Positions 15,708 to 29,818 of a stretch of 33,469 nt of DNA are shown here, in pieces. The stretch comes from a virus: IMG/VR virus record IMGVR_UViG_3300024262_000137, positions 1 through 33,469 of that record. One strand, written 5' to 3'. The position numbers were made by a program, and so were the translations under genes. Each line of letters starts with the position of its first letter. Positions within the stretch are counted from its first letter, which is position 1. The notes under the pieces were generated by a model, which searched no databases, was not told where the DNA came from, and was given only the letters and a program-made list of their open reading frames with translations.

Positions 15708-16934
15708 ATGTCAAAAAATAGTATATTCATCCAAATTGCAGCGTACCGTGACCCAGAATTAGTACCTACATTAAATTCATTATTTGACAACGCAGAATTT
15801 CCCAATAATATAAAAGTATGTGTTGCGTGGCAGCATTCAGAAGAAGATGAGTGGGATAATTTAGGTAAATACAAAAAAGACAAAAGGGTTAAAATATTAG
15901 ATATACCTTTTAATGAAACACATGGAGCGTGTTGGGCACGTAATTTAATACAGCAAGAATATAATAATGAAAAATATACATTACAACTTGACAGTCACCA
16001 CAGGTTTGTAAAAAATTGGGATGTTAAGTTGATTAAAATGTATGAAGGTCTGCAAAAATCAGGTCATAAAAAGCCATTGCTCACTACTTACGCAACAGCA
16101 TACGACCCAAATAATTTTGACATTAAAAATAACGCTGAAGTTTGGGGAATGAAATTTGATAGATTTACACCTGAAGGTGTAGTGTTTTTCCTTCCTTATA
16201 CAATGGAAGATACAAGTAAACCTCTACCAGCAAGGTTTTATTCAGCACACTTTGCTTTTACAACAGGTAAACACGTAGAAGAAGTTCAGCATGATCCTTC
16301 TTTTTACTTTCACGGTGAAGAAATTACTCTTGCTGTTAGGTCTTTTACTCATGGTTATGATTTATTTCATCCAAATGAAATAATTGCTTATCACGAATAC
16401 ACAAGAACAGGTAGAACAAAACATTGGGACGATGATACAACTTGGGTAGAAAAAAATACACACACACATAATAGAGTAAGACAGCTATTAGGAGTAGATG
16501 GTGAAGTTTGTTCTCCTTGTAATGAAAAACATTTTGGTGTCTATGGTCTTGGTAAAGAAAGAACTTTAAATGATTACGAAGAATATAGCGGGATTAGATT
16601 TAGTGATAGAGCTATTAGACAATCATGTTTAAATAATGAAATACCAACATTAGGTATAAAAAATGAACTGTATCATCTCAAATTCAGTCACATATTAAAT
16701 TTACATGGGAATCAATTCCAATATAATGATTATACTTTTTGCGCTATAATATTTGAAGATGAACAGAAAAAAGAATTATGGAGAAAAGACATAACTCATT
16801 TAAATCAGTTAATAAAAAATAAAGATAATTTTAATATACCGGTAGAATCAAATACTCAAAAACCCTCTAATATAATTGTTTGGGCACATTCAGCATCTAA
16901 TGGTTGGGCTGAACGATTAGACATTCCTGTTTAA
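15708..16934 (+). CDS. Glycosyltransferase, GT60 / polypeptide alpha-GlcNAc-transferase type
   Basis: The 408-residue protein matches the Glycosyltransferase (GlcNAc) family (Pfam PF11397, CAZy GT60) in its main landmarks: FIQIAAYRDPELVPTLNSLF at residues 7-26, the nucleotide-sugar/metal motif DSH at 95-97 inside LQLDSHHRFVKNWD, FYFHGEE at 199-205 and HEYTR at 229-233. Known members add alpha-GlcNAc directly to protein: to hydroxyproline of Skp1 in Dictyostelium and to Thr of mucins in Trypanosoma cruzi. There is no signal peptide or membrane segment, so it should act in the host cytoplasm. It lies between two genes that encode Thr-Pro-rich linkers, which are plausible acceptors (inference). 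Its last base is the first base of the next gene's ATG. A weak promoter-like box (TAACTTTA) lies at 15677. Confidence 0.8.
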   Translation: MSKNSIFIQIAAYRDPELVPTLNSLFDNAEFPNNIKVCVAWQHSEEDEWDNLGKYKKDKRVKILDIPFNETHGACWARNLIQQEYNNEKYTLQLDSHHRFVKNWDVKLIKMYEGLQKSGHKKPLLTTYATAYDPNNFDIKNNAEVWGMKFDRFTPEGVVFFLPYTMEDTSKPLPARFYSAHFAFTTGKHVEEVQHDPSFYFHGEEITLAVRSFTHGYDLFHPNEIIAYHEYTRTGRTKHWDDDTTWVEKNTHTHNRVRQLLGVDGEVCSPCNEKHFGVYGLGKERTLNDYEEYSGIRFSDRAIRQSCLNNEIPTLGIKNELYHLKFSHILNLHGNQFQYNDYTFCAIIFEDEQKKELWRKDITHLNQLIKNKDNFNIPVESNTQKPSNIIVWAHSASNGWAERLDIPV

Positions 16935-23711: not shown

Positions 23712-26700
23712 ATGGATGAAATTAAAAAACTGTATGACGTTTTAAGTAGAGACGGATACTATACTAAGTCATTCGAGGATTTTCAGGTGCAGTTTGCTAG
23801 TCCAGAATACATTGATAAAGTTTTTAATGTTGTATCAAACGATGGTTTATATACAAAAGATAAAGATAGTTTTGTAGAAAAATACACCTTAAAAAAAAAA
23901 GAAGATACGGAATTACCATTGGTCGATGGTTTATCGGAGCGATCCGAAGCACAGAAAAAATTTGATGCGGCAGGTAAAAGATTATTGGCAGGCGCTGCTA
24001 GAATACCTACCTATGTAGCTGAAATGACAGCCGCAGGGGTCGGAATGTTTAACCCAGAATTTAAAGATTATTACAATAGTTTGTCTATAGACGATAGAGA
24101 AACTTTTTTAGCAACTGTTTCAAAAGGTGTAAGCCCAGGCACAACTACAGGTTCTTTACTTGGATTTCAGGATGTAGGTAATGAAGCATTTAGTAGATTA
24201 ACTAAAGAAGCTGAGGCAATAGAGTCAACATTAGAAACTTTTGATACGGGAATTACAGAGGATATTTTTTCCGAAAATGTAGGAAGAGGTTTGATCAGAT
24301 TGCTTAATGAAGTTTATGGAGCTATACCATCTGTGGCTGCTGCATTTACTCCTGGAGGTATTGCTGTGATAGGTGCGGGGGAAGCTGCCTCTAAAAGTAG
24401 AGAGCTACAAGAACAAGGTAAAGATTTAAATTTAAGAACTGCTATCAATGCGACTGGTTCTGGTATAGCTGAGGGTATATTTGAAGGAGTGACAAGAAAT
24501 TTAGGTAAAGGCTTATTTAAAAGCCTTGCAGGTAAAACAAAAGAAGAGGCTTTAATAGGAATTACAAAAGCTTTTAGAGGTGTTCTTAAAGGTATGGGGC
24601 TTGAAGGTAGCTCAGAGGTTGGAACTTTACTATCCCAGAAAGCATTAGATAAGTGGGTAACACAAGATGAGGATGCTTTTGTAGATATAATAAAACAAGG
24701 GTTAGATACATTTCTAATTGGAGCTGCGGTTGGTGGCCCAATATCAGGTTTAGATGTTGGTCTTAGAAAATATACTCAAGTATTAGCTGGAAAAAATTTA
24801 AATAAAACTATTGAAAAAACTAAGTATGATGATTTAGTTTCTGCATTTACACCAGCTGAAGGTAAACCAACTTTAGAATTAGATCAAATAGATATTATTA
24901 ATGATTCAAACGCTAAAACATTTCTTGAAGGAACGCTTTTGAAACAAGTTAAAAGAAGTGAAATCTCTCAAGATGCAGCTGATAAAATATTAGAATCTTA
25001 TGATAAGACTGTTTCATTATATTACGATGTAGCTAATTTAAATTTAACAAGAGAACAGCAAATCGAAGCTGCAGGTCTTATAGAAGAAAAGAAACAAATA
25101 CAAAATTTAATTGCAGGTAAAGATGAAGCATTAGTTAAAAAAGAAAGAGACAGAATAAATGAAATAAATGCAGAGCTAGAAAAAATTAGTGAAGAAAGCG
25201 GTGGAGTTACCACAATAAAAGAAGCTACTAAAGAAGATGCTTTAAAAGCATTAGCAGAAGAGGGTGTATTATCACCAACAGATGAACAGATATTAAATAA
25301 ATTAGATGAATTAACAAAAATTAAAGAAGATGCCATTCAAGAGCCAAGCCCAGAGAAGGTGGATGTACAAGAACCTGCCCCAGATAGCGAAGCAGTGGGA
25401 GCGAGAGACATCCAACAACAGCCAATTACCAGAGAGGTTACACCCGAGCAAGTCGAAACAACAACGCAACCAACCGAAGAGATCGAAGCTGAGGTTGAGG
25501 TTACGCCGAGCGAGGTAATTACTGAGGAAACTGTTAAACAAATAGGTGATTTTGAAGTTACTATATCGCCTGAAAATAAAGTTACAAGTATAAAGAAAAA
25601 AGGAAAAGAGTTATCTACAAGAGGTAAAAAAGTTGCAGAGAAAAAACTGATAGAAGAAGGAGTTATAGAATTGATGCCATCCGAAAAAGTAAATATAGAA
25701 GGTATAACTAATCCAATAGAAATTACACAAAAAATATTAGACGAAAGCACAAACCCTGCAGAGCTGGCTCAAGCAATTCAATCAGTTGGTATAATTAAAA
25801 AAGAACAAAAAGATATTTTAAAACAGACTAAAGAATCTGGCTTGCCTTCTTTGTTTGGAACAAAATTTACTCCTGAATCTATTGTAAGTGTTATAGGTTT
25901 AAAGCCGTCTGAACTTGGACAGGGTTTTAGTAGGACTTGGGTAAGTAAAACAGGTGAGAATTTAGAAGATGGATTTATAGATCCTAATGGAGTGGAGTTT
26001 AATAGTAATCAAGTTGCAGAATTTATACAAGACAATCCTAATATTACTGAGTTTAACAATTCAATTACAAAATCTGTAACTCAATTAGTAGACGGTTTAA
26101 AAAATAAAATACAAGATATTACTGGAGTTAATACAAGTGCTGGGAATATTAAATTGATGGCAGAAACTACTCCTGAAGATATAGCAGAAGTTGCAGAGAA
26201 AGCAATATTTGAAGCCCAAAGAAAAGCAGAAGAAAAACCTATTATAGAAAAGGAAATAAAAGAAGAGAAAGTAAAAGTTGATAAATTAAAAAAACCTGAA
26301 GAGGTAGAAAAAGATATTGCAAAACTTTCCCCACATTTAAACACTGTTACAAATAAAGTTTTAAAAACTAACTTTGATAACTTTTTTATTAAAATAAAAA
26401 ATATATTTCTTAGACCTTTAGGCAGACAAAAAGAAAATATTATTCAAGAACAAATTAGGTCTACTCCAGTTCCAAAAGTAGATACTATGATAGGAAATAA
26501 AAATAGTACTTTATTTTACAGAACTCTTTATCTTCCTATAGTTGAATCGTATTCAACATATAAAAATGAATTTGATAGAACACAAAAAATTATAACAGAA
26601 GCAGAAGATAAGTTAGATGCGGAATCAAAAGACGACAGAAATCAAGCTATAATAAATGGATATAAAATAAGATTAGCACAATTAGCGCTCGAGCATGAAA

Positions 26701-28844: not shown

Positions 28845-28927
28845 TTAAATAAATGCCAGAAGATAACGTAAAGTATCACTGCGTTTATAATAGCTACAAT
28901 TAGAAAGTTAAGTTTTGAATTTTTCAT
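28841..28927 (-). CDS. Small single-span membrane peptide (28 residues)
   Basis: A short ORF on the minus strand starts at 28927 with an ATG that overlaps the stop of the metallophosphoesterase gene (ATGA) and stops at 28841, overlapping the late-gene stop by four bases. The peptide has a basic N-terminus (MKNSKLN), a hydrophobic stretch FLIVAIINAVILYVIFW of membrane-spanning length and the end HLFN. It could be a holin-, antiholin- or spanin-like lysis factor, or a membrane anchor; no family can be named. The tight start overlap and the clean hydrophobic profile argue that it is real, but its shortness keeps the confidence moderate. Confidence 0.5.
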   Translation of the reverse strand: MKNSKLNFLIVAIINAVILYVIFWHLFN

Positions 28928-29640
28928 AGTTCCATTAGACAATTTATTGCGGTATGTCCGCCCAGTACAACGCCACATCCTATCGCTTGTTTCTTAAAAT
29001 GCTTTGCGTAAGCAGCTGCGTATGATGTTGTGTCTATACCACAGCCTACCTGCATACCGAAGATACGAAAGTTTCTTCCAACCATCCACTCAATATATGC
29101 CTGTGTATGTATGTGTCCCTGTACAGTAGACATCATGTCGTTCTTAGCTTTTGTTCTAGCCGTTCCTCCCTCTCCGTGAATGTATTGTACATTATCATAC
29201 ACTACTCTCTCTACCCAGTTCCAAGCAGTTCCTAAAACCTCATTGTAAGATTTAATCCACATAGAAGGTATCGCTGATGTCTGAGCTTTACGCATTACCA
29301 TCCTGTCATGGTTTCCTATAATTACATCTGCATCAGGAAAAGAATCTTTCCATTCAGACACAGCTCGAATTGCATACTCTAGCTCATCAGCTCCACCTAA
29401 AGCATCGCTTGATGTTTCGTGGTATGAACTGTAATGATTATCAATAATGTCTCCAATAAATATTACTTGGTTACATAAATACTTTGCGTATATATCCTGA
29501 CAAAACTCTAAATATCCATCAAGTTCAAAGGGTGCGTGTATATCTCCTATGACAAGGATGCGTCTTTCATTTTTAGTTAAGTTATCGTAAGCTATTTTTT
29601 TATCACCTTTAAGGCGAGGTCGGAAATCTTTATATCTCAT
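28924..29640 (-). CDS. Calcineurin-like metallophosphoesterase
   Basis: The 238-residue protein has the ordered metal-binding motifs of the calcineurin-like phosphoesterase superfamily: GDIHAPF, then GDIID, then IGNHDRM, then HGEGG and GHIHT. They bind two metals and cleave phosphomono- or diesters, often nucleic acids or nucleotides in phage members. I prefer the ATG at 29640 to an upstream TTG at 29646. It overlaps the previous gene by 11 bases and the next one by 4, so it is inside the operon. Position among replication genes suggests a role in DNA or nucleotide processing; the substrate cannot be told from the sequence. Confidence 0.85.
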   Translation of the reverse strand: MRYKDFRPRLKGDKKIAYDNLTKNERRILVIGDIHAPFELDGYLEFCQDIYAKYLCNQVIFIGDIIDNHYSSYHETSSDALGGADELEYAIRAVSEWKDSFPDADVIIGNHDRMVMRKAQTSAIPSMWIKSYNEVLGTAWNWVERVVYDNVQYIHGEGGTARTKAKNDMMSTVQGHIHTQAYIEWMVGRNFRIFGMQVGCGIDTTSYAAAYAKHFKKQAIGCGVVLGGHTAINCLMEL

Positions 29641-29818
29641 CTTCAAGGGAGTCAGTTATGGCTTTAAGTTTTGTTGTTATATTAGAAACCTCTCCCTTTA
29701 AATCGCTATACTCTTGATCTATTAACAACTCGTAGATGTTGTTAACGGAGTCGTGAAGATCATCCATTATATAATTTATATTACGAATGCGCTTTTGTTC
29801 TAGCGGTGTTATATTCAT
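29630..29818 (-). CDS. Small helical protein of unknown function
   Basis: The 62-residue product is charged and helical throughout (heptad-like hydrophobics in NINYIMDDLHDSVNNIYELL and VSNITTKLKAITDSL), suggesting a coiled coil. No domain was recognised. It starts with ATG, follows the upstream gene by nine bases and overlaps the next by 11, which supports a real gene in the operon. Confidence 0.55.
   Translation of the reverse strand: MNITPLEQKRIRNINYIMDDLHDSVNNIYELLIDQEYSDLKGEVSNITTKLKAITDSLEDEI

Follow-up and report, generated by a model that had tools for sequence, protein, structure and literature searches.

The usual explanation for overlapping genes is that a new frame arose within an older gene. 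A 33,469-nt stretch of viral DNA (IMG/VR record IMGVR_UViG_3300024262_000137, positions 1 to 33,469; hereafter the window) raises the question of whether a short open reading frame (ORF) inside the gene of a giant virion-module protein is a gene in its own right, and which of the two frames came first. The ORF 25330-25518 encodes MPFKSQAQRRWMYKNLPQIAKQWERETSNNSQLPERLHPSKSKQQRNQPKRSKLRLRLRRAR, a basic protein with a pI of 12.0, while the main-frame translation of the same DNA has a pI of 4.1 (Table 1). That this ORF is a working overlapping gene is, as a whole explanation, very likely, with its translation being inferred. Moreover, one and the same gene is found here both free-standing and fully nested. 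The original prediction, made from the sequence alone, had placed the ORF in another frame of the giant, had set its basic product against an acidic main-frame linker, and had claimed a motif common to many short phage proteins. All three claims held, the last with at least 421 relatives in IMG/VR, and the observation proved larger than stated.

Table 1. Coordinates of the nested gene, the giant gene and their surroundings in the window.
Feature	Position	Strand	Remarks
Giant virion-module protein gene, 1710 aa	23712..28844	+	phrog_32588 match, E 4e-250; all-helical C-terminal domain
Nested gene, small basic protein of the MPFKSxAQ family	25330..25518	+	62 codons and stop; +1 frame of the giant
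A-rich, weakly structured leader of the nested gene without Shine-Dalgarno (SD) motif	25310..25329	+	Inferred translation initiation region; cf. Flavobacterium johnsoniae, PMC6847099
TAA stop in the nested frame	25312..25314	+	Five codons upstream of the nested ATG; relatives show the same pattern
Giant's reading of the nested-gene DNA: acidic P/E/T/Q-rich linker (DAIQEPSPEKVDVQEPAPDSEAVGARDIQQQ...)	25329..25517	+	
Slot immediately 3' of the giant gene	28845..28923	+	Empty in the window; holds a free-standing gene in relatives with a patch-free giant
Convergent 240-aa ORF	28924..29646	-	

The length of the ORF was rejected as evidence. When the codons of the giant gene were shuffled, 42 of 500 shuffles gave an alternative-frame ATG ORF of at least 62 codons, which is not significant, so the case depends on homology. 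The relatives in the scan of IMG/VR contigs, the best of them 90% identical over 52 residues, show that this homology is not due to chance. These small basic proteins (MPFKSxAQ...LPxR) form an old and widespread phage family in which free-standing forms are included and, since the family exists in free-standing form too, the small frame is most simply ancestral and the giant's reading a secondary, sequence-tolerant linker. The giants of relatives with a downstream copy have no P/E/T/Q-rich linker corresponding to 25329..25517. Matches to the PHROG 1375 profile were weak (E 0.028 for the window protein; 19 of 30 members match, best E 6e-5), no usable match to the small protein was found in Pfam, NCBIfam or the PDB, and both sequence and fold searches of the PDB returned nothing usable. 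A Pfam match to Oxygenase-NA lay under its cut-off and was judged to be chance. AlphaFold predicts two helices (residues 6-15 and 17-26), being confident only at the N-terminus and of low confidence in the basic tail. Elsewhere, a protein of about 425 aa on a 198-kb phage contig (L077:5001-6278) has the small family as its N-terminus, and the small gene lies directly 3' of the portal gene in a G+C-rich phage (L073:5001-5144). Host assignment through GTDB contigs was discarded; it yielded two MAG contigs with conflicting taxa, which were judged to be misbinned phage.

Among the 80 best loci, the small ORF is nested in a longer ORF in 71, always in the same relative frame, and is free-standing in the remainder. 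The host ORFs of the 71 loci range from about 200 to 2800 codons, some of them truncated at contig ends, and the giants are homologous. At L017, L018, L019, L033, L036, L060 and L067, the free-standing gene starts no more than 2 nt from the stop of the giant's homologue; at L060 and L067 it is followed by an ORF with the length and orientation of the window's 240-aa ORF, homology with which is untested. To avoid bias, two surveys started from the giant, using two types of its C-terminal domain as queries instead of the small ORF. The counts of states come from these two surveys only, in which contigs of the small-ORF scan recur. The state could be assigned at 115 loci: 90 carry a nested copy, 16 a copy just downstream, 9 no detectable copy, and none both (62, 10 and 9, respectively, after clustering at 90% giant identity). 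In the 9 loci without a detectable small gene the giant is complete, and the small gene is possibly dispensable for some phages of the group, or it may have been missed there. Every scored nested copy is in the giant's +1 frame, and no stop was found in the first 30 residues of any of the 87 nested matches, all of them in that frame. A tree built for one giant type, which has long branches, requires at least four switches between the nested and free-standing states. The giant ORF seems broken elsewhere in a few survey records, and it is open in nested loci. A model in which translation simply continues past the giant's stop codon into a gene downstream was also considered and rejected, with about 1100 aa of the giant following the patch and the frame of the free-standing gene relative to the giant being variable. 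In addition, L192, L200 and L225 carry a second, truncated nested copy (MPFQSQAQKSKFQKTDLENIIQTKG) at about giant residue 922, beside the intact one, which could be a relic of an earlier patch. One 105-kb contig, IMGVR_UViG_3300030101_004148, has two different giants with a nested copy in each (L037 and L118), and might represent two joined genomes or a chimeric assembly.

Substitutions in the overlap indicate which frame is maintained. Entropy across 27 core codons has its minimum at nested position 2, corresponding to position 3 in the giant's frame, and its maximum at nested position 3. In 28 disjoint pairs compared over core codons 2-27, the dN/dS-like value is 0.19 for the nested frame and 2.63 for the main frame, and 113 of the 172 main-nonsynonymous changes are nested-synonymous, against 28% expected (p ~1e-24). 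The pattern is reversed in the flanks, where the giant's own third position is most variable; the most variable codon position thus differs between overlap and flank (p 5e-17). The dN/dS-like values are pairwise site counts and do not come from a full model of overlapping codons; recombination may also link some of the pairs. Constraint on the small frame acts at the protein level, whereas in the core the giant's frame has mainly to remain open, without stops and with G-rich first positions.

Base composition carries a second mark of double coding. A third-position T that precedes AA, AG or GA, and would create a stop in the giant's frame, occurs at 0 of 790 sites in nested copies versus 60 of 186 in free-standing ones, and third-position G amounts to 51% versus 28%. 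Two expectations for overlapping genes are fulfilled, namely that the second frame is conserved as a protein across relatives and that the first frame stays open through the overlap. G+C is 0.43-0.60 in nested copies and 0.37-0.47 in free-standing copies beside the giant. The G+C jump is explained by double coding, as T is avoided where the giant's frame would stop; given this avoidance and the G+C of the free-standing copies, foreign G+C was dismissed as an unneeded source. The original prediction had counted 91/180 for 25321-25500 and 15/60 and 16/60 in the lines at 25261 and 25561. Recomputation reproduced these counts exactly, and the jump need not be a mark of foreign DNA.

Translation of the nested gene is inferred to proceed by internal initiation at ATG 25330 from a Bacteroidota-type SD-less leader; neither ribosome profiling nor proteomics nor genetics is available. 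No Shine-Dalgarno 4-mer was found in any of 62 nested leaders, and 2 of 22 of the window's other genes have one. Weakly structured, the nested leaders are rich in A from -14 to -11 and at -6. Although the leader sits in an AT-rich gene, it surpasses the controls at other same-frame ATGs in both A content (11.7 versus 7.4 A per 20 nt, p 4e-28) and start-region minimum free energy (-1.0 versus -4.2, p 2e-22). This profile matches the translation determinants measured in Flavobacterium johnsoniae (PMC6847099), although A at -3, which is helpful in that species, is not enriched in the nested leaders (26%). A nested-frame stop lies 0-12 codons upstream of the ATG in 70 of 72 loci, four codons upstream in 28 of them, which makes independent initiation likelier than frameshifting.

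The clearest view of the exchange between states comes from L182, L184 and L185, whose giants are closely similar but for one linker. L184 has the patch in that linker and no downstream gene, while L182 and L185 lack the patch and carry the free-standing gene 2 nt beyond the giant's stop. The ORF has also crossed between giants that are only 25-39% identical. L198 and L217, with giants 39% identical, match at 200 of 207 nt in the nested ORF and also share about 18 nt of leader, and identity falls to background (0.50-0.55) in the further flanks; L131 and L144 have 105 of 114 nt in common in giants that are 32% identical. Transfer or conversion is favoured over constraint because nested-synonymous sites vary freely elsewhere, and the ORF, along with some 18 nt of leader, has moved or recombined between diverged giants. 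The empty site in distant pairs could not be resolved to the base because the linkers are too variable. At L087 and L112, the patch lies on opposite flanks of a 75%-identical module, and either the patch or the module has relocated.

Three of the checks that the original prediction had proposed were run: the search for homologues found them, the comparison of synonymous change in both frames showed that selection in the overlap follows the small frame, and the patch-free relatives (L182 and L185) keep giants that closely match that of L184 except in the patch linker. Neither of its refuting cases was observed: homologues exist, and stops break the motif in none of the 87 nested matches. Its two readings, gene capture yielding a linker and a working overlapping gene, are both supported, and the evidence fits them together.

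The family also reaches cultured phages. All 68 records of Flavobacterium elemo phages, as well as MW202828, contain a divergent member inside a giant gene. In the two records examined (L231 and L232), the nested copy lies in the +1 frame of genes of 3694 and 3859 aa and is unannotated; the predicted nested product of the elemo phages is MPFKSKAQMKACYSQDNPKWDCKKW... Between an elemo phage and MW202828, the DNA match is confined essentially to the nested ORF. Giant homologues at L177 and L232 are annotated as 'tRNA methyltransferase' and 'reticulocyte binding/rhoptry protein', labels that look spurious.

As for the giant itself, its C-terminal domain is predicted to be all-helical (pTM 0.82), and among its BFVD matches are internal virion protein D and a structural protein from a Flavobacterium phage. 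Its resemblance to the T7 core protein 9jyy_I is weak (Z 5.5 over 221 aa), and common helical arrangements score similarly. The name 'giant ejection protein' used in the original prediction is therefore possible and plausible, but unproven. A glycosyltransferase-type gene (15708-16934, phrog_24687) also lies inside the late gene region of the window.

In the proposed mechanism, an old free-standing family gene would have become nested in the giant, with the giant's linker being a secondary reading of its DNA. The nested gene would be translated by independent initiation at its own ATG from the A-rich, unstructured, SD-less leader, and the gene would switch between the slot after the giant and nesting within it, never both in the 115 loci. 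Nesting might couple the expression and inheritance of the small gene to those of the giant gene. The small protein, which probably has two helices at its N-terminus followed by a basic tail, may work with the giant as an assembly partner or as a co-packaged virion protein; this is our best guess on its role, inferred only, and we hold it with more doubt than belief. A bolder reading, which taken jointly in all its parts we favour by a narrow margin, regards the ORF as a relocating overlapping gene: a cassette of leader and ORF, open in two frames, would repeatedly replace the free-standing gene, the overlap would have come from an old gene moving into a tolerant linker of the giant and not from the birth of a new frame, and the cassette may additionally act as a conserved seam where giants recombine.

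Several alternatives were weighed against the working overlapping gene. Only the giant's frame might be functional, leaving the small frame as a fossil of an inserted gene. In favour of this, the nested gene is unannotated in the deposited L231 and L232, direct evidence of translation is absent, and the ORF length alone is unremarkable. However, none of the 87 nested matches is decayed, the nested frame keeps its low dN/dS-like value while the giant's residues are free to change, and the downstream gene is missing where the patch is present (L182/L184/L185), which leaves the fossil very unlikely and strongly disfavoured. Programmed frameshifting into the small frame, yielding a truncated giant with a basic tail without internal initiation, would fit the constant +1 frame and the A-rich runs upstream. 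It is nevertheless very improbable, as the ATG and MP start are conserved in free-standing copies too, the upstream nested-frame stop leaves only a short window for a shift, and no common slippery heptamer was seen on inspection of the leaders.

A selfish or homing insertion that carries its own protein out of frame is suggested by the movement of the ORF between diverged giants with the host frame open throughout, and has a precedent (PMC11855218). Against it, the products are only 37-68 aa without a nuclease match, the nested copy is never additional to a free-standing copy, free-standing copies occupy one fixed slot, and insertions are surrounded by variable linkers without a conserved target site; there is thus very little room for this explanation. 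Finally, the constraint might act on DNA or RNA, such as a recombination site, a packaging signal or an RNA structure, instead of on protein, in line with some pairs whose very high nucleotide identity ends at the ORF bounds. This is all but ruled out: the variation follows the nested frame's codon periodicity (position 2 lowest, position 3 highest), the conserved unit is the ORF from ATG to near its stop, and free-standing homologues keep the protein with other codons.

The working overlapping gene, with the large gene's linker as its secondary reading, points to a class of conserved genes missed by annotation, for which the absence of T where the other frame would stop offers a simple finder signature, and cultured host-phage systems exist for testing. 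No prior report of this nested gene was found in one open-access library, and earlier notice cannot be excluded.

Among known systems, two-component spanins (Rz/Rz1 type), the foremost case of nested phage genes, likewise include a small gene wholly nested in a larger phage gene and elsewhere free-standing or overlapping, with nested genes mostly missed in annotation and disorder-promoting residues in the shared region (PMC6139136). The proteins, however, are unrelated: the lipoprotein signal and transmembrane segment of spanins were absent when the sequences were read directly, the nested frame encoding a basic, soluble protein and the giant's reading being an acidic linker. Moreover, the spanin survey recorded no family with both embedded and separated members (PMC6139136), whereas close relatives here include both nested and free-standing members, and the ORF moves from giant to giant. 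The ShiLan element in phage methylases is similar in being a stretch open in the host frame, with another protein out of frame and a patchy distribution (PMC11855218). It differs in encoding a 195-aa HNH endonuclease; the family here is small, basic and non-nuclease, without a Pfam or NCBIfam nuclease match in the hidden frame, and alternates with free-standing copies that occupy a fixed slot. The small phage proteins of PHROG 1375 resemble the nested family through their weak profile match, but have no assigned function and give no hint of nested copies. T7-type internal virion proteins are all-helical like the giant's predicted C-terminal domain, but the structural scores are weak and no sequence relation was found. 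Classical overprinting (PMC8227390) also involves an internal overlap on the same strand in the +1 frame, but the order is reversed here: the small nested frame, with its broad homologues, appears to be the older, and the linker of the large gene is secondary.
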